Source: Arthrobacter woluwensis
GTDB lineage: Bacteria; Actinomycetota; Actinomycetes; Actinomycetales; Micrococcaceae
NCBI RefSeq assembly: GCF_900105345.1
Contig: NZ_FNSN01000003.1
Coordinates: 2,852,001-2,916,000 of the forward strand
Reading direction: 5' to 3'
Length of the DNA stretch: 64,000 nucleotides
The position numbers and the translations under genes were made by a program. This document shows positions 21,590 to 46,789 of the stretch, piece after piece. Numbering within the stretch: the first letter of the stretch is position 1; every line of letters starts with the position of its first letter. The notes beneath the pieces were generated by a model. That model saw only the letters and a list, made by a program, of their open reading frames with translations, was not told where the DNA came from and ran no database searches.

Positions 21590-23455
21590 TCAGGGGACGC
21601 AGACCTTCGCCGAGTCGGCATCTCCGGTGGAACTCGATCCATCCGTCCGGACCACGATCACCTGGATGCAGGTCGGCTGCCCTGCCGTCGGCTTCAGCCG
21701 GACATTGTTCTGTTCGGCCTTCACCCACTCACCCTGTTTGGTGGCGGAGATGGTACGCCACTTGTACGTGTCGCCATCCCGTGGATCCGGGTTCGTCCAG
21801 GAGAAGAAGATCTTGCCCGAGCCGTCCGGGGTGCCGCTGAGGTTCTTCACATCGGCGACCGTGCCGTCGCCCAGCGGATCGACCGGCTTGGCCGTTCCTC
21901 CCCCGGACAGACCGGAGGTGCTCGACTGGCTGGCCGCGTCCGTGGGACGGTCGCGGCCCTTCGTGCCGCCCTGGTTCAGCACGACCACGAGCACGACGCC
22001 GAGAGCCAGCAACAGCGCGCCGGCCACGACGCTGATCCACAGCTTCGTGCGGCCACCGCTCTGCGCGGAACCCTGGCCGCCGCCCTGGGTGTGCGGTGAG
22101 CCGGTCCACTGCTGGCCGGTGTGCTGCTGTCCCGTGGTGTGCTGACCGGTGTTCTGCTGGCCGGTCGAACCGGAATCCTGGAGGCCCCGGAGCACCGTGG
22201 CGCTCGTGGCGTCGTCCTCCCGGGTCCGTTCCCAAGCGGCCGGACCCGCAGGCCCGGCGGAGCCACCCGAGGGCGTCCCGGGCGCGCCACCGTGGTAGCC
22301 GTACGGGGCGTTCCCCTGAGCCGTGCCACCTTGCGGCACCGGGCCACCGGAGGCGCCCGGCGCCGTTCCGGTGGACCGCATCATGGTGGGGTCCTCGGGC
22401 AGCGTCTGGTTCGGCGCCGTGTAATTCGGTGTGGTCCTGTTCGGCGCTGTCCCCTCCCCGGAGGTGCCCGTGCTGCCCGTCCTGCCACTGGAGCTGTCCG
22501 GGTCGATCACGGAGATCCCGCGAAGCCGGGTGGCCTCCACCTCCTCATCGGAGTCCGAGTCGTCCTGGATGGGATCGCCCATGACCTCGAAGGGGGTGAC
22601 GGACAGGCTCAGTTCTGCCTGGATGCGCTGCAGCGCGAGACCGAACGCGTACGCCGACGGATACCGGGCCGCGGGGTTCTTGGCCATGGCGGTGGCCAGT
22701 GCCAATTGCAGGGCCTCCGGCACATCGGCACGCCCCAGCCGCGGCAGGGGCGTGTTGCTGATCCGGTTGATCATCTCCGCGTTGGAGTTGTCGGCTCCCG
22801 GGACGGCGAACGGCGAATGGCCGGCCAGCAGGGTGTACACGGTCGCTCCGAGCGCCCAGACATCGACCAGCACACCGTCGGTGGAGCTGGAGGCGAAGCT
22901 CTCCGGCGGCGACCACGGCACGGACATGGCGCCGTCGTTGCCGTCCTCCTCCGGGTCCCCGCCGATGATGCCGGAGATGCCGAAGTCCGTGAGGGCAGGC
23001 CGGTTGTAGTCCGTGACCAGGATGTTGGCGGGTTTGATGTCCCGGTGCGCGATCCCGGCCCGGTGGGCGGTCTCCACGGCCGAGGCCACCTGGATGCCGA
23101 TGGCGAGGGCCTCCTGGAGCCGGAAGCGCTCCTTCCGGTACCGGAGGTCCAGGCTGGGCCTGGAGCAGTACTCCATGGCCAGGTAGGAGTGGCCGTCCGG
23201 CGTGATGTCCGCTTCGTAGATCGTGACGATGTACGGGTGCGTGGACAGCTGTGCCATCAGGTTCGCCTCGGACTCGAAGGCGCGCCGGGCGCCTTCGGTC
23301 TTCAGACCCGCGTGGAGGACCTTGACCGCCACCTGACGGCGCGGCCTGTCCTGCTGGTACAGGTACACGTCGGCGAAACCACCGGATCCGAGGACCCGGA
23401 CGTAGTTGAACCCGTCGATCCGGGGCGGCGGGGCGGCGGGGCGTTTACGGCTCAC
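21590..23455 (-). CDS. Membrane Ser/Thr protein kinase (PknB-like) with FN3-like ectodomain
   Basis: A 621-residue kinase. The catalytic domain (about 15-285) is complete: glycine loop VLGSGGFADVYLY, K45, HRDIKPANIL (D139), DFG (157-159) and the APE-like WSPPESF. A Ser/Thr/Gly/Pro-rich linker (about 310-465) with possible phosphorylation sites follows, then one membrane segment (about 470-493). The outer part (about 525-621) has FN3-like spacing (GKIFFSWTNP, DTYKWRTI) and two cysteines (TCIQVIVV, AKVCVP). There are no PASTA repeats, so the ligand is unlikely to be muropeptide as for PknB. It overlaps the upstream FHA gene by 4 nt. Confidence 0.92.
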   Translation of the reverse strand: MSRKRPAAPPPRIDGFNYVRVLGSGGFADVYLYQQDRPRRQVAVKVLHAGLKTEGARRAFESEANLMAQLSTHPYIVTIYEADITPDGHSYLAMEYCSRPSLDLRYRKERFRLQEALAIGIQVASAVETAHRAGIAHRDIKPANILVTDYNRPALTDFGISGIIGGDPEEDGNDGAMSVPWSPPESFASSSTDGVLVDVWALGATVYTLLAGHSPFAVPGADNSNAEMINRISNTPLPRLGRADVPEALQLALATAMAKNPAARYPSAYAFGLALQRIQAELSLSVTPFEVMGDPIQDDSDSDEEVEATRLRGISVIDPDSSSGRTGSTGTSGEGTAPNRTTPNYTAPNQTLPEDPTMMRSTGTAPGASGGPVPQGGTAQGNAPYGYHGGAPGTPSGGSAGPAGPAAWERTREDDATSATVLRGLQDSGSTGQQNTGQHTTGQQHTGQQWTGSPHTQGGGQGSAQSGGRTKLWISVVAGALLLALGVVLVVVLNQGGTKGRDRPTDAASQSSTSGLSGGGTAKPVDPLGDGTVADVKNLSGTPDGSGKIFFSWTNPDPRDGDTYKWRTISATKQGEWVKAEQNNVRLKPTAGQPTCIQVIVVRTDGSSSTGDADSAKVCVP

Positions 23456-25461
23456 GGGAGATCCTCGAAGACGATGTAGACCTGGTCGCCGAGTTCGGCG
23501 ACGTCGCCGCTCAGCACGAGCGCCGTCTCCGACTGGCCGAGCCGGCGCGGGGACTGGCCTTCACGCAGCAGAACCGTGCCGTTGCTCGAATTCAGATCGC
23601 ACAGCACGACGTTCCAGCCTTCCAGCCGCACCTCGGCGTGCGAACGGGAGATGTCCCGCTTGGGGCTGTCCACCTGGACCAGGTGGGGCATGTCCCCGCT
23701 GGAGACGCGCGAGACGGACGGCTGACGGCCCAGGATCACATTGCGGTCCAGGACCACGGTCTCGCCGCTGGGCAGCCTCAGCCGGCCGAGAGCCGGGCGC
23801 GGAACGCTCGCGGCGTCACCCGTGATCAGCTCCTCGCAGTTCAGGCAGTGCGTCCGGGTGGGCGGATTGGCGTGGCCTCGCGGGCACATCCGGGCCAGGA
23901 CCCGGGGGCCGTTGGCCGGCGGAGCCGTCGGGGCCGCCTGCGGCGCGCCCTGCGGGACGCCGGTGGGCAGCTCGCTGCGGAACACCGTGTGACCGTCGTG
24001 GTCCAGATCGTCGCCCTGCGGCGCCCCGGGAGGGAACGACGGCGGCGCGGGCGGCAAGGGCGGAGCGGCGGGCGCGGCGCCGGGTCCCTGCGCCGGGGTC
24101 GCCAACGGCGCCGAGCCGACCCCGGGCGCGGCGACGGGAGCCGGCGCCACGCCTGACGCCGAGCCTCCGGAACGGGCCCAGGGCACCTCGTCGATGAGCG
24201 ATTCGCCGTGCTCCGCAGAGGGCAGGAGCGTGTTCTCGGACTCGTCGTGTCGGGCGGGGCCCGCTGTGCCGGAAGTAGGCTCCGGAGTCTCGGACGACGC
24301 CGGTTCCTCGCCGGCGCCGTGTCCGTCGCCGGAACCGGCGGTCGCGGTGGAGACGGAAGTGCCTGTGCCCCCCGGACGATCGTCGCTGTCCTGTGTCCCC
24401 GCGCCGTCCTGGGTCCCCGCGCCGTCCGGCGTGGCCGGGACCTGGTCCCAGAGGTGGTCGTACGTGGTGGTGAGGTCGTTGGGCGCGTCGGCATCATGGT
24501 GGTGCGCGGGAACGTCGCCGGAGTGCGGCCCGGCGACGGACACCGGGCCCTCGCCCGCATCCTCGGCCCCCGGCGCCTGAGCCTCCTCATCCGCGGCCTC
24601 GTCCGCGGCCACGACCGCGCCGTCAGCAGCGGCACTGTCAGTAGAGGCGCCTTCGCCCCGGGCGAGGGCGTCGTCCGACTCGTCCTCGGACCTGTCCTCC
24701 GGCCCGTCCGGGGTGGCCTCGGCGTCCACGGAGTCCCCCGCCCCTGCGTCCTCGCGGGCCGCCCGGGCGCCCAGCAGCTCGGTCGCCAGGCTGTCGGTCT
24801 GGCCGTCGAGGCTGAAGGCTGACTCGTCGTCGTCCTCCTCATCCGACGGATCCCAGGACGACGCCGCGGCACCGGTGTCAGGCGCACTGTCAGAAGGCGC
24901 ACTGACGGGAGACGCTGCCGCCGGCGGGTTCCACGACGTCGCGGGCGCGGCGAAGAGCGGCGCGTCCGCGGTGTCCTCGTGGGCCGTCGCGGAAAGGTCC
25001 TCCTCGAGCGGCTTCTCGGCGGGCAGCTCCCCCACCACCAGCACGGACGCCGTCACGACGCCCGCGTCCAGCGGCATCCACGGGTCCTCGTCGTCGCCCG
25101 GCTCGCCGCCGCGGATCTCGAACGTGTCGCTGGAGGGGAGGGTGCGCTCGTTCCAGGTGGTCACCCCTCGCCCGTGCACCTCGTGGCCACTCCCATCCAG
25201 GGTGCGGACCTGGAGATCACCGCGCAGGAACACCCGGAGGGAGTCCCGGTGATCGACGACGGCGAAATCGGGCAGGCCGGTGACCGAGGTCCCGAACGAC
25301 CGGGTGACCTCGTTGAGCAGCTGGTCCACGGACGGGTTGCGGCCCAGGAGCTCCCAGAGCTGCTGGATCCTCTCGGTCCCGGCGTCCGGGGACACGACCA
25401 CGGCGATCCCGTTGCGCAGGACGTACAGCCAGGGGCCCTGCCGGTAATGATTGGTGTTCAT
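23452..25461 (-). CDS. Large FHA-domain protein with acidic disordered middle and zinc ribbon
   Basis: A 669-residue cytoplasmic protein without membrane segments. Residues 1-100 form a folded N-terminal domain of unknown type (GPWLYVLRNGIAVVV). About 140-505 is Asp/Glu/Ala-rich and then Pro-rich, evidently disordered. A small zinc ribbon follows (CPRGHANPPTRTHCLNCEELI, about 525-545) and then the C-terminal FHA domain (about 565-669: VILGRQPSVSRV, SRSHAEVRLEGWNVVLCDLNSSNGT). This is a scaffold-like layout that binds phosphothreonine proteins. It sits between the kinase and PP2C phosphatase genes with 4-nt overlaps on both sides, so it is likely a substrate of both. Confidence 0.85.
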   Translation of the reverse strand: MNTNHYRQGPWLYVLRNGIAVVVSPDAGTERIQQLWELLGRNPSVDQLLNEVTRSFGTSVTGLPDFAVVDHRDSLRVFLRGDLQVRTLDGSGHEVHGRGVTTWNERTLPSSDTFEIRGGEPGDDEDPWMPLDAGVVTASVLVVGELPAEKPLEEDLSATAHEDTADAPLFAAPATSWNPPAAASPVSAPSDSAPDTGAAASSWDPSDEEDDDESAFSLDGQTDSLATELLGARAAREDAGAGDSVDAEATPDGPEDRSEDESDDALARGEGASTDSAAADGAVVAADEAADEEAQAPGAEDAGEGPVSVAGPHSGDVPAHHHDADAPNDLTTTYDHLWDQVPATPDGAGTQDGAGTQDSDDRPGGTGTSVSTATAGSGDGHGAGEEPASSETPEPTSGTAGPARHDESENTLLPSAEHGESLIDEVPWARSGGSASGVAPAPVAAPGVGSAPLATPAQGPGAAPAAPPLPPAPPSFPPGAPQGDDLDHDGHTVFRSELPTGVPQGAPQAAPTAPPANGPRVLARMCPRGHANPPTRTHCLNCEELITGDAASVPRPALGRLRLPSGETVVLDRNVILGRQPSVSRVSSGDMPHLVQVDSPKRDISRSHAEVRLEGWNVVLCDLNSSNGTVLLREGQSPRRLGQSETALVLSGDVAELGDQVYIVFEDLP

Positions 25462-26348
25462 TCTTCCTCCCCCGACGCCGCGGCTGCCGCGGCGCTCTCC
25501 TCGCGGAGCGCCAGGAGCTCCCGTGGCAATGTGTCCTCCGTCTCCGCGTCGATGCGGGGAGAGGTGGTCAGCTCGCCGTCGTGGGCGAACGCGTCGACCA
25601 CCACCACGCTGACATTGTCGCGGCCCCCGTTGCGCAGGGCGGCCTGGATCAAGGCGTCCGCGGCCTCCTGCGGGTCGAACGTGTTCTGCAGGGTCCGGCG
25701 GATGAACTCGTCCGAGACCTCGCCGGTCAGGCCGTCCGAGCAGACCATGACCCGGTCACCGTCCTCGATGGGCAGCAGCCAGTAATCCGGCGCCCCGCCG
25801 TCGCCGCTGCCCAGGGCACGGGTCACCACATGGCGGCGCGGGTGCCGCAGGGCCTGGGTCGCGGAGATGGAGCCGTTGTCGATCAGCTCCTGAACCTCCG
25901 AGTGATCCACGGTCACCCGTTCGAAGGCGCCCCGGCTGAGCCGGTACGTCCGGGCATCCCCGACGTTGAAGACCAGCCAGTACGGCTTCTGGTTCTGCTC
26001 GACCACCGCGACGCCGCTCAGGGTGGTCCCGGCGCGGCCGGAACCCTGCTGCCGGATGGCCAGGTCGGCTTCCTGGAGGGCCTGCTGCAGACGGGTCACG
26101 TCCACGTCGCGGTTGCCTTCCGGGGTGGCCAGGCGCTGGGCGAGGGTACGGACGCAGATGCCACTGGCGATCTCCCCCGCTTCGTGCCCGCCCATGCCGT
26201 CGGCGACGGCGAACACCGGGTCCTGCGCGATGAGCGAGTCCTCGTTCAACTCGCGGCGGAGGCCCCGGTCCGTGCCGAAGCCGGCGGTCAGGGTGAGAGG
26301 CCCGGCGCCGTGGGCCGAGGCGAAATCAGAGGGTACTTCGGAGATCAT
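25458..26348 (-). CDS. PP2C-family Ser/Thr phosphatase
   Basis: A 296-residue cytoplasmic PPM phosphatase that should reverse the cluster kinase. All metal and phosphate-binding motifs are present: the GLRRELNEDSL Arg and acidic residues, VADGMGGHEAGE, FNVGDARTYRL, CSDGLTGEV and GGRDNVSVVVV. Length and order match PstP/PrpC, but the protein has no membrane anchor; after the catalytic core (about 245) only an acidic tail follows. The 4-nt overlaps with both neighbours tie it to the RDD-FHA and FHA proteins. Confidence 0.95.
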   Translation of the reverse strand: MISEVPSDFASAHGAGPLTLTAGFGTDRGLRRELNEDSLIAQDPVFAVADGMGGHEAGEIASGICVRTLAQRLATPEGNRDVDVTRLQQALQEADLAIRQQGSGRAGTTLSGVAVVEQNQKPYWLVFNVGDARTYRLSRGAFERVTVDHSEVQELIDNGSISATQALRHPRRHVVTRALGSGDGGAPDYWLLPIEDGDRVMVCSDGLTGEVSDEFIRRTLQNTFDPQEAADALIQAALRNGGRDNVSVVVVDAFAHDGELTTSPRIDAETEDTLPRELLALREESAAAAAASGEEE

Positions 26349-27913
26349 GGTGTGCTCAGCTTAAAAGTCCGGTCCCCGAATTTCACAGTCGACCCGGGGC
26401 GGACGAAACGTGCCTCTCCCGCGACCAGCCGGACCAGGGTGCCATCGGCCAGCATCTCACCGCTGCCGTTGGTCGACTGGCGGTCCGTCACCCAGGCGCC
26501 GCCCGAGGCAGGGACCACGAGCAGATGGGTCTTCGAGATGGACCGGCCGGCGTCGTCGAGCGCGAGGAGACGCAAGCGCTCCTCCCCGGCCCGCGCCGCG
26601 GGATTCCGGCCGATCAGGACGCCCTCATCGAGCGCGACCTGCGCGCCGTCGTCGAACAGGAGGACGAGCGAGTCCTGCTGTCCGGCGGACCCGGACGGCA
26701 GATGGGCACGGAGCATCGTCTCCCCGTGGTCGGCAGGCGCCGACGGCGGAGCGAACTGCTGCTGTGGCGGAGCGAACGGCGCGGGCTGGCCGTGCTGCTG
26801 GTGCTGCGGCTGCTGCGGCTGCGGCGACGAGGGCTGCTGGTGCCCGAACGGCGCAGGCTCCCCGAACTGGCCCGGCTCCCCGAACTGGACGGGGAACGGC
26901 GCCTGAGGCACCGGCGGGACCTGACGGCCGTGCTGCTGCGGGGCGGCTGGACCGGGCTGCGGCACGACGACGGGCGTCACCGCCTGCTGCGGCTGGGACT
27001 GCTGCTGGGGCTGCTGCTGCGCCGGCCGGCTCTGACCCTGCGCGGCCAGCGGGGACGCCACCGGGCGCACGGCCGGCAGGTCGAGGGTCGGGTAGCTGTG
27101 GCTTCCCGCGATGCCTTCGGTGGTCACCGGGTTCCGGCCGTTCCGGACATCGAACACGAGGGTGCGGGCGACCTTGTCATGCCAGCCCTGCTTGCGCTCG
27201 TTCGGGTCCCAGGCGTTGGACACACCGGCCACGATCAGCCAGAGGAAGGACACGATCGAGCCGATGCTCCCCACGATCTGCACCACGCCGGCCGGTGCGA
27301 AGAAGGCCATGATGCCGCCCACGAGGGAGAACAGGATGTTCGGGGCCAGCAGCACGAGCCAGCGCAGGAACACCGCGCCGGCGCCCGGGGCATAACCCTC
27401 GAGCTCCGTGGTCCTGATCCCGAAGATCGCGTTGCCCAGCGAATTGCCGCTCCGCGCCTCCATGATCCACATCGTCACGACGTAAGCCAGCCAGATCAGC
27501 ACGGCGAGCCCGGACATGATGAGGGCGAAGACCACGTCCTCCTGGCTCGGTCCCAGGTTGGCGGACCCGGCCAGGCCGTTCTTCAGCAGTGCGGCGGCGC
27601 CCACCGACAAAAGGATGCCGGCGATGATGCCGGGCACGGCCAGGTCGATGACCTTGGAGAAGAGACGCTTGACGGCGCCCGCACGCACCACGGGCTGCGT
27701 GGCGGGCAGCTGATCGGGATGCTGGGCCACGATCCCCGGGCTCGAGGACTGCCACGGGCCGCCCTGCGGTGCTCCGCCCGGCTGCTGCGGATGCTGCACA
27801 CCGTTCCTCAGCGCCGCCCGGTTGCTCAGGGACGTGCCGCAGGCGAGGCAGAACCCCGCTCCCGGGGTGAGCTGTTGCTGACACTGGGGGCAGCGTTCAA
27901 CGTTGATGCTCAT
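26345..27913 (-). CDS. RDD membrane protein with zinc ribbon and C-terminal FHA domain
   Basis: A 522-residue protein. An N-terminal zinc ribbon (CPQCQQQLTPGAGFCLACGTS, residues 8-27) leads to an RDD domain with about four to five membrane segments (about 85-255: VKRLFSKVIDLAVPGIIAGILLSVG onwards, closing with the KQGWHDKVARTLVFDVRNG motif). A Pro/Gln-rich linker (about 295-395) follows, then the FHA domain (about 410-520: VLIGRNPAARAGE, ISKTHLLV, STNGSGEM). The FHA domain would recruit phosphorylated partners to the membrane. It has 4-nt overlaps with the transglutaminase-like and PP2C genes. Confidence 0.88.
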   Translation of the reverse strand: MSINVERCPQCQQQLTPGAGFCLACGTSLSNRAALRNGVQHPQQPGGAPQGGPWQSSSPGIVAQHPDQLPATQPVVRAGAVKRLFSKVIDLAVPGIIAGILLSVGAAALLKNGLAGSANLGPSQEDVVFALIMSGLAVLIWLAYVVTMWIMEARSGNSLGNAIFGIRTTELEGYAPGAGAVFLRWLVLLAPNILFSLVGGIMAFFAPAGVVQIVGSIGSIVSFLWLIVAGVSNAWDPNERKQGWHDKVARTLVFDVRNGRNPVTTEGIAGSHSYPTLDLPAVRPVASPLAAQGQSRPAQQQPQQQSQPQQAVTPVVVPQPGPAAPQQHGRQVPPVPQAPFPVQFGEPGQFGEPAPFGHQQPSSPQPQQPQHQQHGQPAPFAPPQQQFAPPSAPADHGETMLRAHLPSGSAGQQDSLVLLFDDGAQVALDEGVLIGRNPAARAGEERLRLLALDDAGRSISKTHLLVVPASGGAWVTDRQSTNGSGEMLADGTLVRLVAGEARFVRPGSTVKFGDRTFKLSTP

Positions 27914-30309
27914 TGCCCATCTCCTTTACTGCGTCGTACCTTCTCCAGGAGGCCTCGAGGGCCGGACTCCAGGACCGTGCGTGCTTCCACCAGCAGCGAG
28001 CGAGGCGAGAACCTGGCCCGCTGGCGGCGCCAGAAGCCCATCCCCTCGGTCATGCTGCTCAGCGACTGGTCCACATTCTCCCAGTACGCCCGGACCTCCT
28101 CCTCGGCCGGTTCCCCGGCCCCGAACACGGCCGCGTCCGCCCGCTGAGCGAGCAGCACCGTGCCAGGGGCCGCCGCCGGGAAGGCCTCCCCCACCAGGGA
28201 CGAGGTCTCGCGGCGCGTGGCCTTCGGATCGACCGGTGTCCCGAGGTCCGTGGCCAGGCTGACCACTTCGCTCCAGCCACCCGAGAACCGCTGCGCCGGA
28301 GGCCCTTCGAGGGCCCTCTTCTTGCGGCGCCGGTTCTTCAGGACGGCGATCAGCACCAGTGGCAGCGCCAGGATCAGGACCGGGATCGCCGCCAGGCCGA
28401 TCGTGGCCAGGATCGGGCCGAGGATGGACCAGAAGTCGTTCTTCTTCTGGTCGGCGTCCGCGGCCTCCGGCTGGGAGTCCGGCGGGAGTTCGGCCGGCTC
28501 CTGCGGCGGGGGCGGCGGCTGCAGGACCTGAGGCTTCGGCTTGGAGTTCTTCTCCGGATCCGGCGGGATCGGGACGTTGTCCTTCGGCGGGGTGGGGTCG
28601 AAGGGGATCCAGCCTGCGCGGTCGAAGTTCACCTCGACCCAGGCGTGCACGTCCTTGCCCTTGATCTGGATGTCGCCGCCACCGTTCTGCGGGCTCTTGG
28701 GGTCGGGGTAGAAGCCCATCACGACGCGCGCCGGCATGCCCAGCTGGCGGCAGACGAGCGCCATCGCCGAGGCGTACTGCTCGTCGTCGCCCAGCATCTG
28801 CTTGGCGGTGAACAGGGTGGTGAGACGTGATTCGCCGTGGCCGGACAGGCTGGGAACCTGCCCCTCGGTGACGAGGCCGTTGCTGAACGCGCCCTTGGTC
28901 CGGAAGTAGGCCTCGATCTGGCGCACCCGGTCGATGTCCGTGGGCGCGTCGCCGGCGATCTGATCCGCCTTCTGGGCCAGCGCCGGCGGAACCCCGTCCG
29001 GCTTCGGCAGCGAGTCGGCGGCCACCCGGTACTGGGTCAGCTGACCGTGGCTGAGCGTGGGCGGGACCTGCACCTGAACGGTGTAGTGATCGCCCTTGCC
29101 GAGGCCGAGCGTGGTGATGGCGGTGTCCGAACCGGAGTTGAAGTAGAGACCGCCGCCGGCCGCGCTCGAGACCGGGAAGTCGAAGCCGACCGTCCGCGTG
29201 CCTCCCGGCACGAAGTAGCCCTGGTAGTCCCCCACCGTCACGTCGATCGTGTAGTCGGAGGTGCCGTCGCCCGTGGGCGCCTGCGGGTTCAGCGCGCGAG
29301 CATCGCCCACCTTGCTGAAGTTGCCGGTGCCGTTCGGGTCCACGTTGTAGACCGTGCCGTTGTAGCTGTCCAGAGCGGCGAGACGCACTCGGCCGTCCTT
29401 GGGCAGGCCCTTGACCTCGAAGAGCGTCTTGTCCTTCTGGTCCTTGACCATGGTGCGGAAGGACGCGAGCGGGGTGATGTAGTTGCGCGGATCGAACGGC
29501 GGCACGACGACGTCGCGCAGCACCTGCCGCTCGCTGGTCGCCGTCACGGCCGGGGACGCCAGAGCCGTGACGACCACCGCGCCGGCCAGCACCCCGGCGC
29601 CGAGCGCCAGGCGGTTGAACCGTGCGCGGCGGACGGCGCCTGCGTCGTGCTCCGCACCCTTGGCGACGATCCTGGCCTCCGCGCCTCGCAGACGGGACCG
29701 GCGCCAGGACGCCCAGACGAGGGCTGCCACACCGAGCGCGGCGCCGCGTGGCACCGTCAGGAAACTCGCGTTGGTGCTGAAGGCGACGCCGACCACGAAC
29801 AGGGCGAGCACGGGCAGGAGGGGCCAGAGCGCGCTGCGCAGCCGCCAGGTCAGCAGCCCGGCCGCCACGGCGCAGATCAGCCCGGCGAGGAACGGCACGA
29901 TCAGCATGCCGTCCGCGACGCCTACCGGGACGCCGACGGTCAGCATGTCCTTCCAGGAGAAGACGATGCCGAGCAGGAGCGTCCGCAGGGAATCCAGGCT
30001 CGGCAGAACTCCGAACAGGGCCTGTGTGGGGGTGGCGAGAGCACTGCCGAACAGGAAGTACACCAGGACGCCGGAGCCCGCCGTGGCCAGGAGGCCCAGG
30101 CGGAGCCGGTGGCTCAGGGCCGCGACGCCGAGACCGAGGGCGACGCCGCCCAGCCCCGCCAGGAGGTACCGGGGGTCGCCGCCGTAGCTGAGGTGGAGAC
30201 CGAGGATCCCGAGTCCCAGCAGGACGAACAGCGCCCCGGCGTCGGCGAGGTCCTGCCAGGCCGGGAGCCCCCGCCTGCCGAGGACGCGAGTGGTGGACGC
30301 GGTGCTCAT
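27910..30309 (-). CDS. TgpA-type transglutaminase-like membrane protein, catalytic Cys absent
   Basis: A 799-residue protein. About six membrane segments occupy residues 20-230, and an extracytoplasmic region follows with a transglutaminase-core domain (about 470-580). One more membrane segment (about 630-655) and a cytoplasmic tail complete it. In the core, His (KDVHAWVEV) and Asp (WIPFDPTPP) of the triad are present. The position of the catalytic Cys in the usual G-x-C-x-x-(F/Y)-A pattern reads G-D-D-E-Q-Y-A, with Asp instead. It is therefore probably a binding or structural pseudoenzyme. MoxR, DUF58 and TgpA-like proteins recur together in bacteria. The 4-nt overlaps with DUF58 and RDD-FHA show tight coupling. 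Confidence 0.87.
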   Translation of the reverse strand: MSTASTTRVLGRRGLPAWQDLADAGALFVLLGLGILGLHLSYGGDPRYLLAGLGGVALGLGVAALSHRLRLGLLATAGSGVLVYFLFGSALATPTQALFGVLPSLDSLRTLLLGIVFSWKDMLTVGVPVGVADGMLIVPFLAGLICAVAAGLLTWRLRSALWPLLPVLALFVVGVAFSTNASFLTVPRGAALGVAALVWASWRRSRLRGAEARIVAKGAEHDAGAVRRARFNRLALGAGVLAGAVVVTALASPAVTATSERQVLRDVVVPPFDPRNYITPLASFRTMVKDQKDKTLFEVKGLPKDGRVRLAALDSYNGTVYNVDPNGTGNFSKVGDARALNPQAPTGDGTSDYTIDVTVGDYQGYFVPGGTRTVGFDFPVSSAAGGGLYFNSGSDTAITTLGLGKGDHYTVQVQVPPTLSHGQLTQYRVAADSLPKPDGVPPALAQKADQIAGDAPTDIDRVRQIEAYFRTKGAFSNGLVTEGQVPSLSGHGESRLTTLFTAKQMLGDDEQYASAMALVCRQLGMPARVVMGFYPDPKSPQNGGGDIQIKGKDVHAWVEVNFDRAGWIPFDPTPPKDNVPIPPDPEKNSKPKPQVLQPPPPPQEPAELPPDSQPEAADADQKKNDFWSILGPILATIGLAAIPVLILALPLVLIAVLKNRRRKKRALEGPPAQRFSGGWSEVVSLATDLGTPVDPKATRRETSSLVGEAFPAAAPGTVLLAQRADAAVFGAGEPAEEEVRAYWENVDQSLSSMTEGMGFWRRQRARFSPRSLLVEARTVLESGPRGLLEKVRRSKGDGQ

Positions 30310-31901
30310 GCGACCGCCTTTCGCAGAACGAGGGCCAGATCGTCGAGACCGCCCAGCGTGAGGACGGTCAGATCGGCGATGGTGGCGCGGGACGGCGCGG
30401 CCCCGGGCTGGATGCGGATGGCCATCGCCCGGACACCCGGCAGGACGGAAGCGGCGCAGGAGCGCAGCTGGGCCGGGGTGACGCCACTGCCCACCACGAA
30501 GAAGACCACGGACGCGTTCGGGACGCGGTCCGCCAGGCGGCGCGCCAGATCCACGGCGTCACGGCGTCCGGTCATGCTCTGGAGCCGCGTGGCGTCGTCG
30601 AGCATCGTCCGGCCGGTGGCACAGCGGAAGGGGCCACGCTGGGTGAGGATGTCCAGTTCGCGCTGTTCGACGAGGGCCTGACGGCCCACGGAGCACGCGA
30701 CGGAGATGGCCAGTTCGAACTCGAGTTCCGAGGCGTATTCGTCCAGATTGGCGGAGAGGGCGATCGCCAGGTGTGCTCGGCGGGTCTCCTCGAACTGGCG
30801 GACCATGAGGGTGCCCAGGCGGGCCACGGTCTTCCAGTGGATGTGGCGGCGGTCATCGCCCGGCGCGTACTCCCGCAGTGCGTGGAAGGACACGTCCGTG
30901 TTGGACAGTTCCTTGGTGGTCATGCCTTCCAGGTCCCGGATGAAGCCGGCAGCAGGACTGCCGAGAGCGACCGTCCTGGGATGCACGAAGAGCTCCACCG
31001 GCTCGGTCCAGCGGATCTGGCGCTTGAGGAGGTGGAACGGATCGGCCCGGACGGAGACGGCCGGACCCACCATGATGACCTGGCGACGGTTCGTGGGAAT
31101 GCTGAAGAGATCCTCGTGGAGTTCCTGGGGCCGCAGGCGCGGAATGGGGAAACTGGCCACCGCCCGGCCCACCGGAAGCTCCAGCGTGGAGTGCATGACG
31201 GGACGCGGCGCCGTGTTGATGACGGAGATGCCACCCACGGCGTTGTCGCCCACCGCCACGCGCGTGCGGGTGAGATCGAGCGTGACCTGGTAGGAGGAGC
31301 GGCCCACAATGAACGCGCAGCCCACCACCAGGAGGACTCCCAGAAGGATGCCGAGTGCTGCGGCCTCCTGCCAGCCGAATGCGGTGGCGAACCATGCCAT
31401 GCACACGACCAGCGCCAGGCAGGCCCAACCCAGCGGCGTGACGACGGAGACCACGGGGCCCACCGTGCGGACCAGGACGTCGCGGACCCTGCCGGTCACG
31501 GGACCGCAGACGTCCACGATCACGCGCCAGGCCTGCCGGAGCAGCGAGACCGGACGCTCCGCGACGGTCCTGAGACCGTCCAGCGGAGCGCCCTTCGCTT
31601 CGGAGCCCGCCGCCCGTGCAGGCCGTGTGGCTTTGCCGGGGCGCGGAGCCTTGACCTGCCGCCGGGCCTTGTCGGGACGCCGGGCGCCGCGGGCCGGGCG
31701 CGACGACGACGGCCCGGCGCCGCCTGCCGGCCCGGGCGAGCCGGACGGCTGAGCGGGCGGTGCGGACGGCTGGGGCGGGGCCGCCGGGGCGGCGGGCCTC
31801 CGGATGGTCCGGTCCTCCCCCGCAGGGGCCGCGGCGCCCTGATCCTGGGCGCGCCGGGCCTCCCGCGCTGCGCGCCGCGATGTGGGGGCGTTCTCACTCA
31901 T
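30306..31901 (-). CDS. DUF58 protein (vWA-like), partner of MoxR
   Basis: A 531-residue protein. A Pro/Ala/Arg-rich, probably disordered N-terminus (1-110) is followed by two membrane segments (about 155-205). A cytoplasmic or surface beta-rich part leads to the DUF58 signature ALREYAPGDDRRHIHWKTVARLGTLMVRQFE (about 345-375), and a vWA-like C-terminal half (VVFFVVGSGVTPAQL) follows. DUF58 proteins are the usual partners of MoxR chaperone ATPases in maturing or assembling envelope complexes. MoxR is encoded 61 nt upstream and the transglutaminase-like gene overlaps by 4 nt. Confidence 0.9.
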   Translation of the reverse strand: MSENAPTSRRAAREARRAQDQGAAAPAGEDRTIRRPAAPAAPPQPSAPPAQPSGSPGPAGGAGPSSSRPARGARRPDKARRQVKAPRPGKATRPARAAGSEAKGAPLDGLRTVAERPVSLLRQAWRVIVDVCGPVTGRVRDVLVRTVGPVVSVVTPLGWACLALVVCMAWFATAFGWQEAAALGILLGVLLVVGCAFIVGRSSYQVTLDLTRTRVAVGDNAVGGISVINTAPRPVMHSTLELPVGRAVASFPIPRLRPQELHEDLFSIPTNRRQVIMVGPAVSVRADPFHLLKRQIRWTEPVELFVHPRTVALGSPAAGFIRDLEGMTTKELSNTDVSFHALREYAPGDDRRHIHWKTVARLGTLMVRQFEETRRAHLAIALSANLDEYASELEFELAISVACSVGRQALVEQRELDILTQRGPFRCATGRTMLDDATRLQSMTGRRDAVDLARRLADRVPNASVVFFVVGSGVTPAQLRSCAASVLPGVRAMAIRIQPGAAPSRATIADLTVLTLGGLDDLALVLRKAVA

Positions 31902-31962: not shown

Positions 31963-32928
31963 TCAGGCCCTCTGCTGAGGCGCCGCGATCTCGGTGAGGA
32001 CGCGCGAGATCACCTGCTCCTGGGTCGCCCCGGAGAATTCCGCCTCCGGGTCCATGACCAGACGGTGGGTCCACACCACCGGGGCCAGTTCCTTGACATC
32101 GTCCGGCAGCACGAAGTTCCGGCCCTGCGCGGCGGCCCACACCTTGGCGGCCCGAACCATGGCGAGCGCGCCACGCACGGACACGCCCAGACGGGTCTGC
32201 GGCGCGTTGCGGGTCTCCTCGGTCAGGCGCGAGATGTAGCCGAGCACGGCGGGATCCACGTGGTTGGTGGACGCCAGGTCCGCCATGTCCGCGATCGCCT
32301 TGGTGGTGATGATCGGGGTGAGGGCCTTGGAGCGGTCCTTGAGGCTCGCGCCGCTCAGCAGTTCCACCGTGGAGTTGTGGTCCGGGTAGCCGATGCTGGT
32401 CTTGATCAGGAAGCGGTCCAGCTGGGCTTCCGGAAGGCGGTAGGTGCCCGCCTGCTCGATCGGGTTCTGGGTGGCGAGCACCATGAACGGGCGCTTGGCC
32501 TCGTAGGTCACGCCGTCCACGGTCACCCGGGATTCCTCCATGACCTCCAGGAGCGCCGACTGGGTCTTCGGCGAGGCACGGTTGATCTCATCCGCGAGCA
32601 CGATGTTGGCGAACACCGGGCCTTCGTGGAAATTGAACTGCTGCGTCTTCTGGTCGTAGATGTTCACGCCCGTCACATCGGACGGCAGGAGGTCCGGGGT
32701 GAACTGGATGCGGTTGTGCGTCCCCTGGACACTCGCCGCCAGGGCGCGGGCCAGGGAGGTCTTGCCCGTCCCCGGGGCGTCCTCGAAGAGCACGTGGCCC
32801 TCCGCGAGCATGCTCATGACCGTCAGCCGGATGACGTGCTGCTTGCCCAGCACCGCCTGGCCGACGTTGGCCACGAGTTTCTCGAAGGTCCCGGCGAACC
32901 ACGTGGCCTGCTCGGTGGTCATCGTCAT
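31963..32928 (-). CDS. MoxR-family AAA+ ATPase
   Basis: A 321-residue AAA+ chaperone. Walker A is EDAPGTGKTSLARAL (about 45-60), Walker B is IVLADEINRASPKTQSALLEVMEE, sensor 1 is VLATQNPIEQAGTYRLPEAQLDRF, and the C-terminal lid ends with DVKELAPVVWTHRLV. MoxR proteins act with vWA/DUF58 partners on protein complex assembly. ATG 32928 (AAAGGAA about 9 nt upstream) is preferred; the frame continues about 110 codons upstream, but that part is the shadow of the FN3 gene end. It starts 94 nt after that gene's stop. Confidence 0.94.
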   Translation of the reverse strand: MTMTTEQATWFAGTFEKLVANVGQAVLGKQHVIRLTVMSMLAEGHVLFEDAPGTGKTSLARALAASVQGTHNRIQFTPDLLPSDVTGVNIYDQKTQQFNFHEGPVFANIVLADEINRASPKTQSALLEVMEESRVTVDGVTYEAKRPFMVLATQNPIEQAGTYRLPEAQLDRFLIKTSIGYPDHNSTVELLSGASLKDRSKALTPIITTKAIADMADLASTNHVDPAVLGYISRLTEETRNAPQTRLGVSVRGALAMVRAAKVWAAAQGRNFVLPDDVKELAPVVWTHRLVMDPEAEFSGATQEQVISRVLTEIAAPQQRA

Positions 32929-33022
32929 GATGCTGTGTTCCTTTGTGTCGAGTGAATCTGTTGGGGAGTGTACTGGGCCAGGGCGTTTTCTGGATGGCCG
33001 GTGTATGCCGGGTGGACCGAGA

Positions 33023-36000
33023 CTAGCAACGCACGTTTCCGGAAACCACCCGCACGGTGTCGGCGCGGACCCAGCGGTCCGCGTAGGCGCCACCGGAAAT
33101 GTGGTACCAGCCCGAACCGCCAAACGGGTTGCCGCAGCGGTCCACAGGGACGTCGTTCCCGGTGTGGAGCCACGGGAACGGCGCGGCCGTGCCGCCACCA
33201 CTCGCAACTCCGTAGCAGGACTTGGGCGGTCCGGCGCTGTAACCGGTCCGGCCGTTCTGACCACCCGTCGCCTCCGTGCAACTGTTCACCGACGAAGCGG
33301 TCACCGAGACCTTGTCCTGTTCCGGTGCCGCACCCGAGGTCGAGGTGTCCGAGCCGGCCGGACCCACGACGACCGTGAAGGCCCTCACCCGAAGCGTCTT
33401 GGTGACGCTGTAGTTCGCCACGCTGCGGGAGTAGCTGTGGGTGCCGGCGCTCACATTCTGCCAGCCGTTGCCGTCGTAGTTGATCTGGTAGTACTGGATC
33501 GCCCGGCCGTTGTTCGCCGGGGTGTTCCAGGTCCAGCTGACGGTCTTGTCTCCGCGGGATGCCTGGCTGCCCTTCACCACCGGAGCGTCCGGCGGACCGT
33601 AGGGATTGCCGGAGCCCACGTTGGTGTCGTTGCCGGCCCGGCTGCTCCGCGTCGAGTGCGCCATGATGGTGATGGCGATGTTGCTGCCGTTCACGCCGAC
33701 GTTGACATTTCCGCCCCCTGCTGGGATGGATCCACCCACGCCGTTGCTGGAGCGCCAGGTGTAGCTGATCTCGTCACTCGTGGACCCGTTGCGCGCGGGC
33801 CCGCTCAAGGGGGTGAAAGTCACCTTGAGTTCTCCGGACTGCCCGGTGGGCGCGACCGACCCATTGGTCACCTGCCCGGGCTGCCCGGCAGCCCGGACCG
33901 CGTTTGACCGGGCACTCGTGGCACCCTTGCCCGCCTTATTCGTGGCACTCACCGTGAAGCTGTAATCCGCTTCGGAATTGTCCATGGAGACATTCGCGCT
34001 CGTCTGGCCGCCGGGAACGCTGAGGGTCTTGACCACGGCCCCACCTTGATAGGTGGTCAGAGTGTAGGCGGAGATCGCGGCGCCGTTGGGATCCGGGGCG
34101 GTCCATTCGACGGTCAACTGGCTCTGCGTACCGAGGGATTCCGCCGACGTCGCACGCGGCGCCTGCGGCTGCGCCGGGACGCCGGCCGGGGTTTCGGCCG
34201 CCGAATAGGCGCTGAACTCACTGGGCTCCGGGGCCTGGTTGGAAGCCCTGACCCGGAACTTGTACGCCACGCCGTTCTTCAGCCCCGTCCACACGGTGCT
34301 CGTGCCTTTCAGGCCCGGCTTGCTGGACACCCCGTTCGGAGCGGGCGGGGAGATCTCGAGCTCGTAGGACGTGACCGGTGAGCCCTTGGTGACCGGCGGC
34401 TGCCAGGCCACGGAGATCTGCTGGTCACCGAACTTGGTGGTCGGCGGGTTCGGCTGCTCCGGGCGGGTGTCCGGGCGGACCTCCGCCGACGGCGCCGAGG
34501 CCTGGGACTCGCCGACGGCGTTGGTCGCCGTCACCGTGAAGTGGTACTTCACGTTGTTGGTGAGGCCCGTCAGCGTGCAGCTGTTCGCCGGGCACTGCTG
34601 CGTGAAGCCGCCCTCGCCCTTGACGGTGTAGTGCTCGATGGGCGCGCCGCGGTCCGCGGGCGGACGCCAGGTCAGCAGCGCGGTGCGGTCACCCACATTA
34701 CTGGCGCTCGGTGTGCCCGGAACGTCCGGCTTGTCCCGCACGGTCAGCCTGATCCGCGCGGTGGCGGTACGGCTCGGGTCGTCCTTCTTGTCCCGGACCG
34801 CGTAGGCGACGACCATGGTGCCGCTGAAGCCCTGTGCCGGGGTCACCTGGACCTGGTCGCCCTGCACGAGCGCCGTGCCGTTGCCGGTCTCGACCACGGC
34901 GCTGGCGATCTTCAGCGGCGTCTCGGGATACGGGTTGACGTCATTGGCCAGCACCGGCACCGAACGGGGCTTGCCCGCGTCGGCATCCGCGACCGTGTCG
35001 TCGTTCGCCACCGGCAGCGGCCGGACGGAGGCCTTGGCCACGAGCGTGAAGGACGCGACGGCGGTGCCGCCCCGCCCGTCGTCGGCCTTGATCCGCAGCG
35101 TGCCGCGCGTGCCCGGCTTCGGTTCGCCCTTGAGCGAGGACTTGAGCGTCGCGCCGTCGACGCCGGCGTCGAAGCCCGCGGGGGCGTCGCCCTCCAGGGA
35201 GAAGCGCAGCTGGTCGCGGGAGTCGGGGTCGCTGGCGAGCTTGGACAGGTCCACCGTGGCGCCGCCGTCCTCCGCCACCTCGACGGTGCTGCCGAGGAAC
35301 CGCGGCGGGTGGTTTCGGTCGGGATCGGCGATCACCTTGGTGCGGATGGTGAGGGTGGCTTTGAGGCCCTTGGGATCGTCCGGCGCGTCGCCGTCGGTGA
35401 CCTCGAAGCTCAGTGAACCCGGGCCCACGTACTCCCGGTTCGCGGTGTAGCGCAGCGAGCCGCCGTTATCGCGGACGGCGTCCTGGGCGTTGGCGCCGAT
35501 CATGGTGACGCGGTCCACCTGGGTGATCCGCGGGGTGCGCCCGTCACGGACCTTCACCCATTCCTTGAGCTGGTAGTCCAGGCTGCTGCCGGCCTTGACC
35601 TCGAGCACGTCGTCCTTCGCCAGGACCGGGATCTGCTCCCCCACGCCCGGGACCCAGACGATCGCGGTGGCCTTGAGTCCGTCCACGTCCTCGACGGTGT
35701 ACGGGACGAGCTGCGCGTCCTTGGTCAGGTTGACCGCCAGGCCGCCCTTGCCGTTCGGATGGGCGTTGGGGTTCTCGCTGGAGATCTTGAGCTTCTCCCC
35801 CACGCCGTCAGGGTCCTCGTCGTTGTCCAGGACCGGCACGTCGACGCTCGTCTTGCCGAGTGTCTGCGCCTGGGTCACGCGGTCGTCCCGCGCGATGGGC
35901 GCCTTGAGCGGCACGTCCTTCCGCGCGATGATCCGCACGGAGGCGTCCGCCGTCGCGCCGCGGGAGTCGGCGATGGTGTACCGCAGGCTCGCGGTCCCCT

Positions 36001-45649: not shown

Positions 45650-46789
45650 TCAGTCCACCACGAGCCCCGGGCCCGCTCCCCGCTCCAGCAGAACCGGCGA
45701 GATCTCGCCGAATCCGCGCACGTTCTCCGGCTCCTGAGGAGTCAGGATGTAGCGCTCGTCCCCCGCCAGGACACTGGCCGTCAGAGAGTCGATCAGCACC
45801 GTCCCCGGCTCGGCGAGCGCGGTGAGGCGCGCGGCCAGGTTCACCGTGGGACCGTAGATGTCGCCCATGCGGGAGAGGATCCGCCCCCAGACCAGGGCCA
45901 CGCGGGTCTTCGGCAGGATCTCGTCGTCTTCGAAGGCCTGGGAGAGCGCCAGGGAGATCTCGGCGCCGGCGGTCGGGGTCTCGGCGACGTAGAGCACTTC
46001 GTCGCCGATGGTCTTGACCAGCCGGCCACCGCCCACGGAGATGATCTCCGCGCACTTGTTCTCGAACCGCTGGACCAGCTGAGCCAGGGTGCGCTCGTTC
46101 ATCCGGCGGGACAGGCTCGTGTAGGAGACCAGATCGGCGAAACCCACGGCGCGGGCCAGCGGCAGCGGAGCGTCGTCCTCGTCGCCTTCACGGCCTTCCT
46201 CGCTCGCCTCAAGGCCGGAGGCGGCGCGGACCGAGAGCCGCTGGACCGCGGCATTCAGCTGACGGCGCCAGGAGTACCGGAGCACCTGCTCGAGCGGGTC
46301 GATCAAGGCGGGAAGAACGTCCACGATGTTCTGCCGGGCTTCGGCGTCCGGGATGCCCTGGTTGGCCATGAGGTCTTCGACGAGCGCCTCGACCTGCCAC
46401 ACGACCATGCGGTCGGTCATCTGTCCGATGGAACGGGCGATCGAGATGGCGGTCTCCTCGGTGAGGAGGCCTTCGCGCACCAGTCCGACGATCGTCTCCA
46501 GCGCCTGCTGGTCCGACTCGGTGAAGGCGACGTCCTGGTCCCCCCAGTTCGGGAAGCCGAGCGCGCGCCAGATCTTGCGGGCGGAGTGCAGCGACACGCC
46601 CACGCCGGAGGCGACTTCACGACGGCGGAGGGTCCGGTCACCGCCGAGCAGCCGGCGCTGCAGTTCACGGACCGAGCCGACCTGGGGAAGGGAGGTGGTG
46701 GGCACGGGCACCACGGGGGTGTGTGCGTCGGAGTCCGTCTCGTGCGGGTCGACGGCGGGGGCGGCCTGTCCGGAGGTCTCCTCGCTCAC
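45650..46789 (-). CDS. Class III adenylate cyclase with N-terminal regulatory domain (Rv1264-like)
   Basis: A 379-residue soluble cyclase that makes cAMP from ATP. Residues about 35-205 form a helical regulatory domain (REVASGVGVSLHSARKIWRALGFPNW), as in the pH-regulated M. tuberculosis enzyme Rv1264. The catalytic domain (about 213-379) has all six key residues: metal-binding D219 (GFADLVSYT) and D263 (KTIGDE), adenine-selecting K259 and D310 (GDIYGPTVN), and transition-state N317 and R321 (NLAARL). It should be active, and specific for ATP. It overlaps the bPH2 gene by 4 nt and lies 130 nt upstream of giant protein B. Confidence 0.92.
   Translation of the reverse strand: MSEETSGQAAPAVDPHETDSDAHTPVVPVPTTSLPQVGSVRELQRRLLGGDRTLRRREVASGVGVSLHSARKIWRALGFPNWGDQDVAFTESDQQALETIVGLVREGLLTEETAISIARSIGQMTDRMVVWQVEALVEDLMANQGIPDAEARQNIVDVLPALIDPLEQVLRYSWRRQLNAAVQRLSVRAASGLEASEEGREGDEDDAPLPLARAVGFADLVSYTSLSRRMNERTLAQLVQRFENKCAEIISVGGGRLVKTIGDEVLYVAETPTAGAEISLALSQAFEDDEILPKTRVALVWGRILSRMGDIYGPTVNLAARLTALAEPGTVLIDSLTASVLAGDERYILTPQEPENVRGFGEISPVLLERGAGPGLVVD

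Follow-up and report, generated by a model that had tools for sequence, protein, structure and literature searches.

A TgpA-like membrane protein without its catalytic cysteine, encoded in MoxR-DUF58 operons with giant Ig/FN3 proteins in actinobacteria

The window, the whole 64,000-nucleotide stretch of the Arthrobacter woluwensis genome analysed here (contig NZ_FNSN01000003.1, positions 2,852,001 to 2,916,000), carried on one strand a series of genes in the order of a giant protein (2064 aa), a second giant protein (2037 aa), a MoxR ATPase, a DUF58 protein, a pseudo-transglutaminase, a zinc-ribbon/RDD protein, a PP2C-type phosphatase, an FHA-domain protein and a protein kinase (Table 1). The genes from DUF58 through to the kinase were linked by 4-bp overlaps. 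Giant protein 1 possessed a single N-terminal hydrophobic segment, and no C-terminal anchor was detected in it. The C-terminal stretch of the zinc-ribbon/RDD protein resembled an FHA domain by eye, which was unreported by Pfam. In PADLOC, neither the pseudo-transglutaminase nor DUF58 had a match and MoxR had only a weak one to TRIP13, and assignment of the locus to a defence system was rejected on this outcome.

Table 1. Positions of genes, domains and catalytic slots in the window
Feature	Position	Strand	Remark
Pseudo-transglutaminase gene, 799 aa	27913..30309 (27910..30309 with stop)	minus	uninterrupted ORF
Transglut_core (PF01841), residues 447-572	28594..28971	minus	Pfam score 77.4 bits (cut-off 23)
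Asp508	28786..28788	minus	D or N in 99/100 clade representatives; Tyr/Phe in Cys-bearing enzymes
Asp509, codon GAC	28783..28785	minus	catalytic Cys slot; helix 509-522 starts here (alignments and AlphaFold2)
Cys520	28750..28752	minus	nearby cysteine; not conserved
His555 (VHAWVEV)	28645..28647	minus	catalytic His slot
Asp571 (FDPTP)	28597..28599	minus	catalytic Asp slot
DUF58 gene	30306..31901	minus	Pfam DUF58 35 bits; 4-bp overlap with pseudo-transglutaminase gene
MoxR AAA+ ATPase gene	31963..33264	minus	Pfam AAA_3 211 bits; true start probably internal
Giant protein 1, 2037 aa	33023..39136	minus	ten Big_9 and three fn3 stretches
Giant protein 2, 2064 aa	39325..45519	minus	ten Big_9 and three fn3 stretches; 49% identical to giant protein 1
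Zinc-ribbon and RDD membrane protein	26345..27913	minus	4-bp overlap with pseudo-transglutaminase gene
PP2C-type Ser/Thr phosphatase	25458..26348	minus
FHA-domain protein	23452..25461	minus
Ser/Thr protein kinase	21590..23455	minus	Pkinase 139 bits
Nucleotide-cyclase-domain protein	45653-46789	minus	directly upstream of the giants
Open frame, 1719 aa	16204-21363	plus	no Pfam match
Open frame, 1149 aa	35759-39208	plus	antisense to giant gene; probably a high-GC artefact

The pseudo-transglutaminase was predicted to consist of N-terminal membrane helices, an extracytoplasmic transglutaminase-like domain, one more membrane helix and a helical tail. Hydropathy analysis of the 799-aa protein gave clustered membrane segments at the N-terminus, a long soluble part, a membrane helix at approximately residues 639-657 and a positively charged tail. 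Besides Transglut_core, Pfam detected TgpA_N (PF11992) with 58 bits, and DUF4129 with 22.5 bits, slightly below the cut-off. The sole significant sequence match in the PDB was the periplasmic domain of Pseudomonas aeruginosa TgpA (6g49), and the AlphaFold2 model of the window protein (mean pLDDT 89.8) also had TgpA as its best Foldseek match (6g4h, E 4.8e-10). The profile and the structural match placed the protein in the transglutaminase-like superfamily (PF01841 fold), and the combination of a TgpA_N membrane region with an extracytoplasmic Transglut_core placed it in the TgpA family. Indeed, P. aeruginosa TgpA (PA2873; PDB 6g49, 6g4h) shares the membrane helices, the extracytoplasmic transglutaminase-like domain and the last helix with the window protein. 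The nearest named relative, among the best 80 named loci, was that of Arthrobacter horti with 82% identity.

The sequence-only reading had located the transglutaminase core at 28640-28800 and claimed that the catalytic Cys was replaced by Asp, with another Cys eleven positions off. The core block GDDEQYASAMALVCRQLGMPARVVMGF corresponded to residues 507-533 of the ORF, and Asp509 was paired by phmmer with the catalytic Cys of TgpA 6g49. A profile of 74 clade sequences agreed, as GDDEQYA was aligned to GFCAHYA of TgpA. Papain-like folds carry their catalytic Cys at the N-terminal end of the core helix (PMC10318531). The AlphaFold2 model placed Asp509 at the beginning of the core helix 509-522, His555 in the strand 554-562 and Asp571 after the strand 566-570, so the replacement of Cys by Asp was borne out by both alignment and structure prediction. 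The nearby cysteine was likewise found at the stated distance as Cys520, near the far end of the helix 509-522. Its role as a relocated nucleophile was rejected, since it was present in only 3/100 relatives and lay three helical turns from the slot on the same helix. Asp571 was situated just outside the interval given in that reading.

Homologs were collected from 246 genomes of the phylum, 248 of the order and 247 of the class, in addition to the best 80 named loci, nearly all of which belonged to Micrococcaceae. The clade yielded 212 distinct core sequences, and Cys occupied the slot in none of them, the residues being D in 148, E in 22, A in 16, S in 15, G in 9 and Q in 2; the corresponding numbers in 100 divergent representatives were D58, A14, E11, G9, S6 and Q2. 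In Micrococcaceae, the family of the window, Asp509 and His555 were present in all of 92 sequences and Asp571 in 83 of them. The absence of Cys was therefore ascribed neither to chance nor to sequencing error, because Asp509 was found in 92/92 Micrococcaceae and Cys in 0/212 clade members. Fixation of the Cys-to-Asp change, which had been proposed for examination by alignment, held within Micrococcaceae, but a strict clade-wide fixation was rejected with six residue types at the slot, A, E, G, S and Q occurring elsewhere besides D. The claim that His and Asp of the triad were kept was similarly valid for the family of the window but not for the wider clade, in which His was conserved in 32/100 and Asp in 58/100 representatives, and 28/100 lacked His and also had none of D/E/N/Q at the third slot. 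Within the clade, the invariance of Asp509 and His555 was limited to Micrococcaceae.

A tree of 127 proteins was constructed by a quick method without rooting, after the Cys slot, the preceding residue and the His slot had been masked wherever they were recognised by the motif search. A branch with full support separated all of the 100 clade rows from the rest. The other side contained the Cys-bearing proteins together with several other Cys-less kinds (GTSEQFA, GNSEQFA and GYAEQHA). One Cys-less protein (L288) was nested among the Cys-bearing proteins, indicating a separate loss. The direction of the change was taken as loss of Cys rather than gain, since proteins of the superfamily normally have Cys. 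The Cys-less TgpA-like proteins outside the clade were L012, L015, L020, L030, L033, L241, L284, L285, L288 and L289, with the motifs GTSEQFA, GNSEQFA, GTAEQFA, GYAEQHA, GYSEQHA and GSSEHFA, and MoxR and DUF58 adjoined in those examined. The clade is common in Actinomycetales, and the catalytic loss is old and clade-wide. We consider it very likely that cysteine catalysis has been lost.

The loss of the triad was not accompanied by decay of the rest of the protein. G507, Q511, R528, G532, W557, E559 and W567 were invariant in the clade, and E510, P574, A556, H491 and R495 were nearly so, whereas the triad columns 509, 555 and 571 ranked only 55th, 90th and 63rd in conservation among 134 sites. 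Relative to 17 Cys-bearing proteins, the clade differed most sharply, besides the slot, at sites including D/N508, occupied by Tyr/Phe in the enzymes, and R495, present in 98% of the clade versus no consensus in the 17 proteins. This pattern is that of selection on the fold and one surface, and not on catalysis. The bifidobacterial member L215 had zero triad residues (GDSEQYA, DIAAW and FYPTP), and TgpA was no longer retrieved by sequence search with this protein. Its model nevertheless gave a confident fold (pLDDT 84.2) with a helix beginning at the Cys slot, and the best Foldseek match was again TgpA 6g4h (E 1.6e-10, TM 0.69 on target). With Cys gone clade-wide, the rest of the triad eroded in most of the clade, and the fold and other residues under selection, the earlier designation as a pseudoenzyme was strongly supported.

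The gene context was investigated for those 185 clade loci whose upstream sequence covered 2 kb or more. All 185 encoded DUF58, and 181 of them MoxR. Among the 91 loci with more than 6.5 kb upstream, most of them from Micrococcaceae, 89 encoded an Ig/FN3 giant. Signalling genes were detected in at least 114 (PP2C), 85 (kinase) and 81 (FHA) of the 185 loci, lower bounds set by short flanks. The ORFs were intact in nearly all clade loci.

One of the families with clade members (f65) encoded a phosphoketolase near-identical to the PDB phosphoketolases 3ahc, 3ai7 and 8io6, which we take to be from Bifidobacterium breve and B. longum, and the family was identified as bifidobacterial on the basis of this near-identity. 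Its loci had the order of Ig/FN3 giant, MoxR, DUF58 and TGM, identical to the published order of PFNA. The PFNA operon of Bifidobacterium consists of pkb2, fn3, aaa-atp, duf58 and tgm, in which TGM has been termed a transglutaminase or a presumed cysteine protease, and a sensing role has been suggested (PMC6803598, PMC8430577). The window shared with this operon the order of FN3 giant, MoxR-type ATPase, DUF58 and transglutaminase-like protein, and in both the genes for a phosphatase and an FHA protein come next. Unlike the PFNA operon, it had two giants and a zinc-ribbon/RDD gene, and the kinase gene was located at the far downstream end rather than first, the cyclase-domain gene preceding the giants. 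The label of cysteine protease for PFNA TGM is, as far as the sequences compared here tell, unsupported. In the open-licence papers found, the missing catalytic residues of the PFNA transglutaminase were unmentioned. As the clade includes this bifidobacterial protein, annotated as transglutaminase/cysteine protease in papers on host-microbe communication, models that give the operon a part in crosslinking or cleavage of host or surface proteins would need revising if catalysis is impossible, and the question would become the ligand of the dead domain.

P. aeruginosa TgpA possesses the full triad and showed transglutaminase activity in vitro (PMC3507681), in contrast to the window protein with Asp at the Cys slot and its clade without any Cys there. 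The genome of the window also contained a separate canonical MoxR-DUF58-TgpA cluster (L242) with intact Cys (GYCIHYA, DAHAW and FEPTP), sharing the three-gene core and the TgpA_N/Transglut_core/DUF4129 architecture with the window. No FN3 giant was detected beside this cluster; since canonical TgpA adjoins MoxR-DUF58 without giants, the link to MoxR-DUF58 alone does not indicate giants. The persistence of the canonical enzyme in some of the same genomes makes enzyme and pseudoenzyme comparable in matching MoxR-DUF58 settings. Eukaryotes also have transglutaminase folds that are catalytically dead, namely EPB42, Rad4, FBXO21 and menin (PMC10318531). Like the window protein, they have retained a transglutaminase or papain-like fold after catalysis was lost, in their case for scaffolding; they are intracellular eukaryotic proteins of unrelated architecture, whereas the window protein is a bacterial polytopic membrane protein encoded in a MoxR operon. 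No description of a bacterial clade of TgpA-type pseudoenzymes was found in open-licence papers.

On balance, we lean towards a membrane pseudoenzyme that descends from a TgpA-like transglutaminase and is shared by the whole clade; its dead papain-like domain would be retained for binding or scaffolding in a MoxR-DUF58-giant operon under control of kinase, phosphatase and FHA proteins. The idea of the sequence-only reading that the module may serve the giant proteins rests on the invariant gene context, the giant occurring in 89/91 loci; a scaffold for the giants is plausible at slightly below even confidence, and the ligand of the dead cleft could differ from the giants. The protein would be placed in the membrane with the dead cleft outside and the helical tail inside, as predicted by the model. 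The cleft would then bind a peptide or protein and leave it unprocessed; the likeliest ligand would be an emerging giant or adjacent wall peptides. The tail might couple to DUF58 and MoxR, with ATP driving the loading, release or remodelling of the complex of giant proteins, a step suggested by the invariant neighbourhood and the known chaperone roles of MoxR. Kinase and phosphatase may gate this machine, as the operon composition suggests; in PFNA, the MoxR ATPase is a substrate of the kinase Pkb2 (PMC8430577). More tentatively, the pseudo-transglutaminases spread over the phylum may serve as receptor or loading platform in a hitherto undescribed, ATP-driven MoxR-DUF58 machine exporting or assembling Ig/FN3 giants on the actinobacterial surface, the cleft recognising them without cutting or crosslinking.

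The main rival to this assembly role, which we regard as rather unlikely, is that the protein is a receptor and not a part of an assembly machine; the dead cleft would bind a soluble or wall-derived ligand and signal across the membrane to the MoxR/kinase circuit, with the giants as outputs rather than ligands. The kinase, PP2C and FHA genes in the window operon and many relatives, as well as the sensing role proposed in the PFNA papers, are consistent with such a receptor, but the steadiest partners were the giant, MoxR and DUF58, and the signalling genes were present in fewer loci. It is very improbable that the pseudoenzyme tunes a catalytically competent TgpA paralog in the same cell. The intact-Cys TgpA in the genome of the window would suit this function, but 8/12 genomes of the bifidobacterial family, as well as two from other families, contained no other Transglut_core (PF01841) protein, and therefore the role cannot be solely the regulation of an active paralog, which was rejected as the general function.

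Another chemistry, in which Asp509, His555 and Asp571 hydrolyse a substrate or hold a metal at least in Micrococcaceae, is given an equally low likelihood. The invariance of Asp509 and His555 in that family leaves room for lineage-specific chemistry, and Asp509 was found in all of the 32 His-bearing representatives. However, syntenic relatives sharing the conserved motif lacked His (68/100) or had A, G or S at the slot, and the link between Asp and His was not significant after correction for the tree, so that coupling of the two residues as a new catalytic pair was rejected despite their 32/32 co-occurrence. Decay into a non-functional gene remnant has a negligible probability. The loss of catalytic residues alone would fit it, but it is already contradicted by the conservation: the intact ORFs nearly everywhere, the many invariant non-catalytic residues, the constant position in the operon and the confident native-like fold.

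With respect to the neighbouring DUF58 protein, the vWA-like Asp seen in enzyme-type clusters (LLLDTR) was Ser (AIALS) in the window and many clade loci. The DUF58 partner may be altered too.
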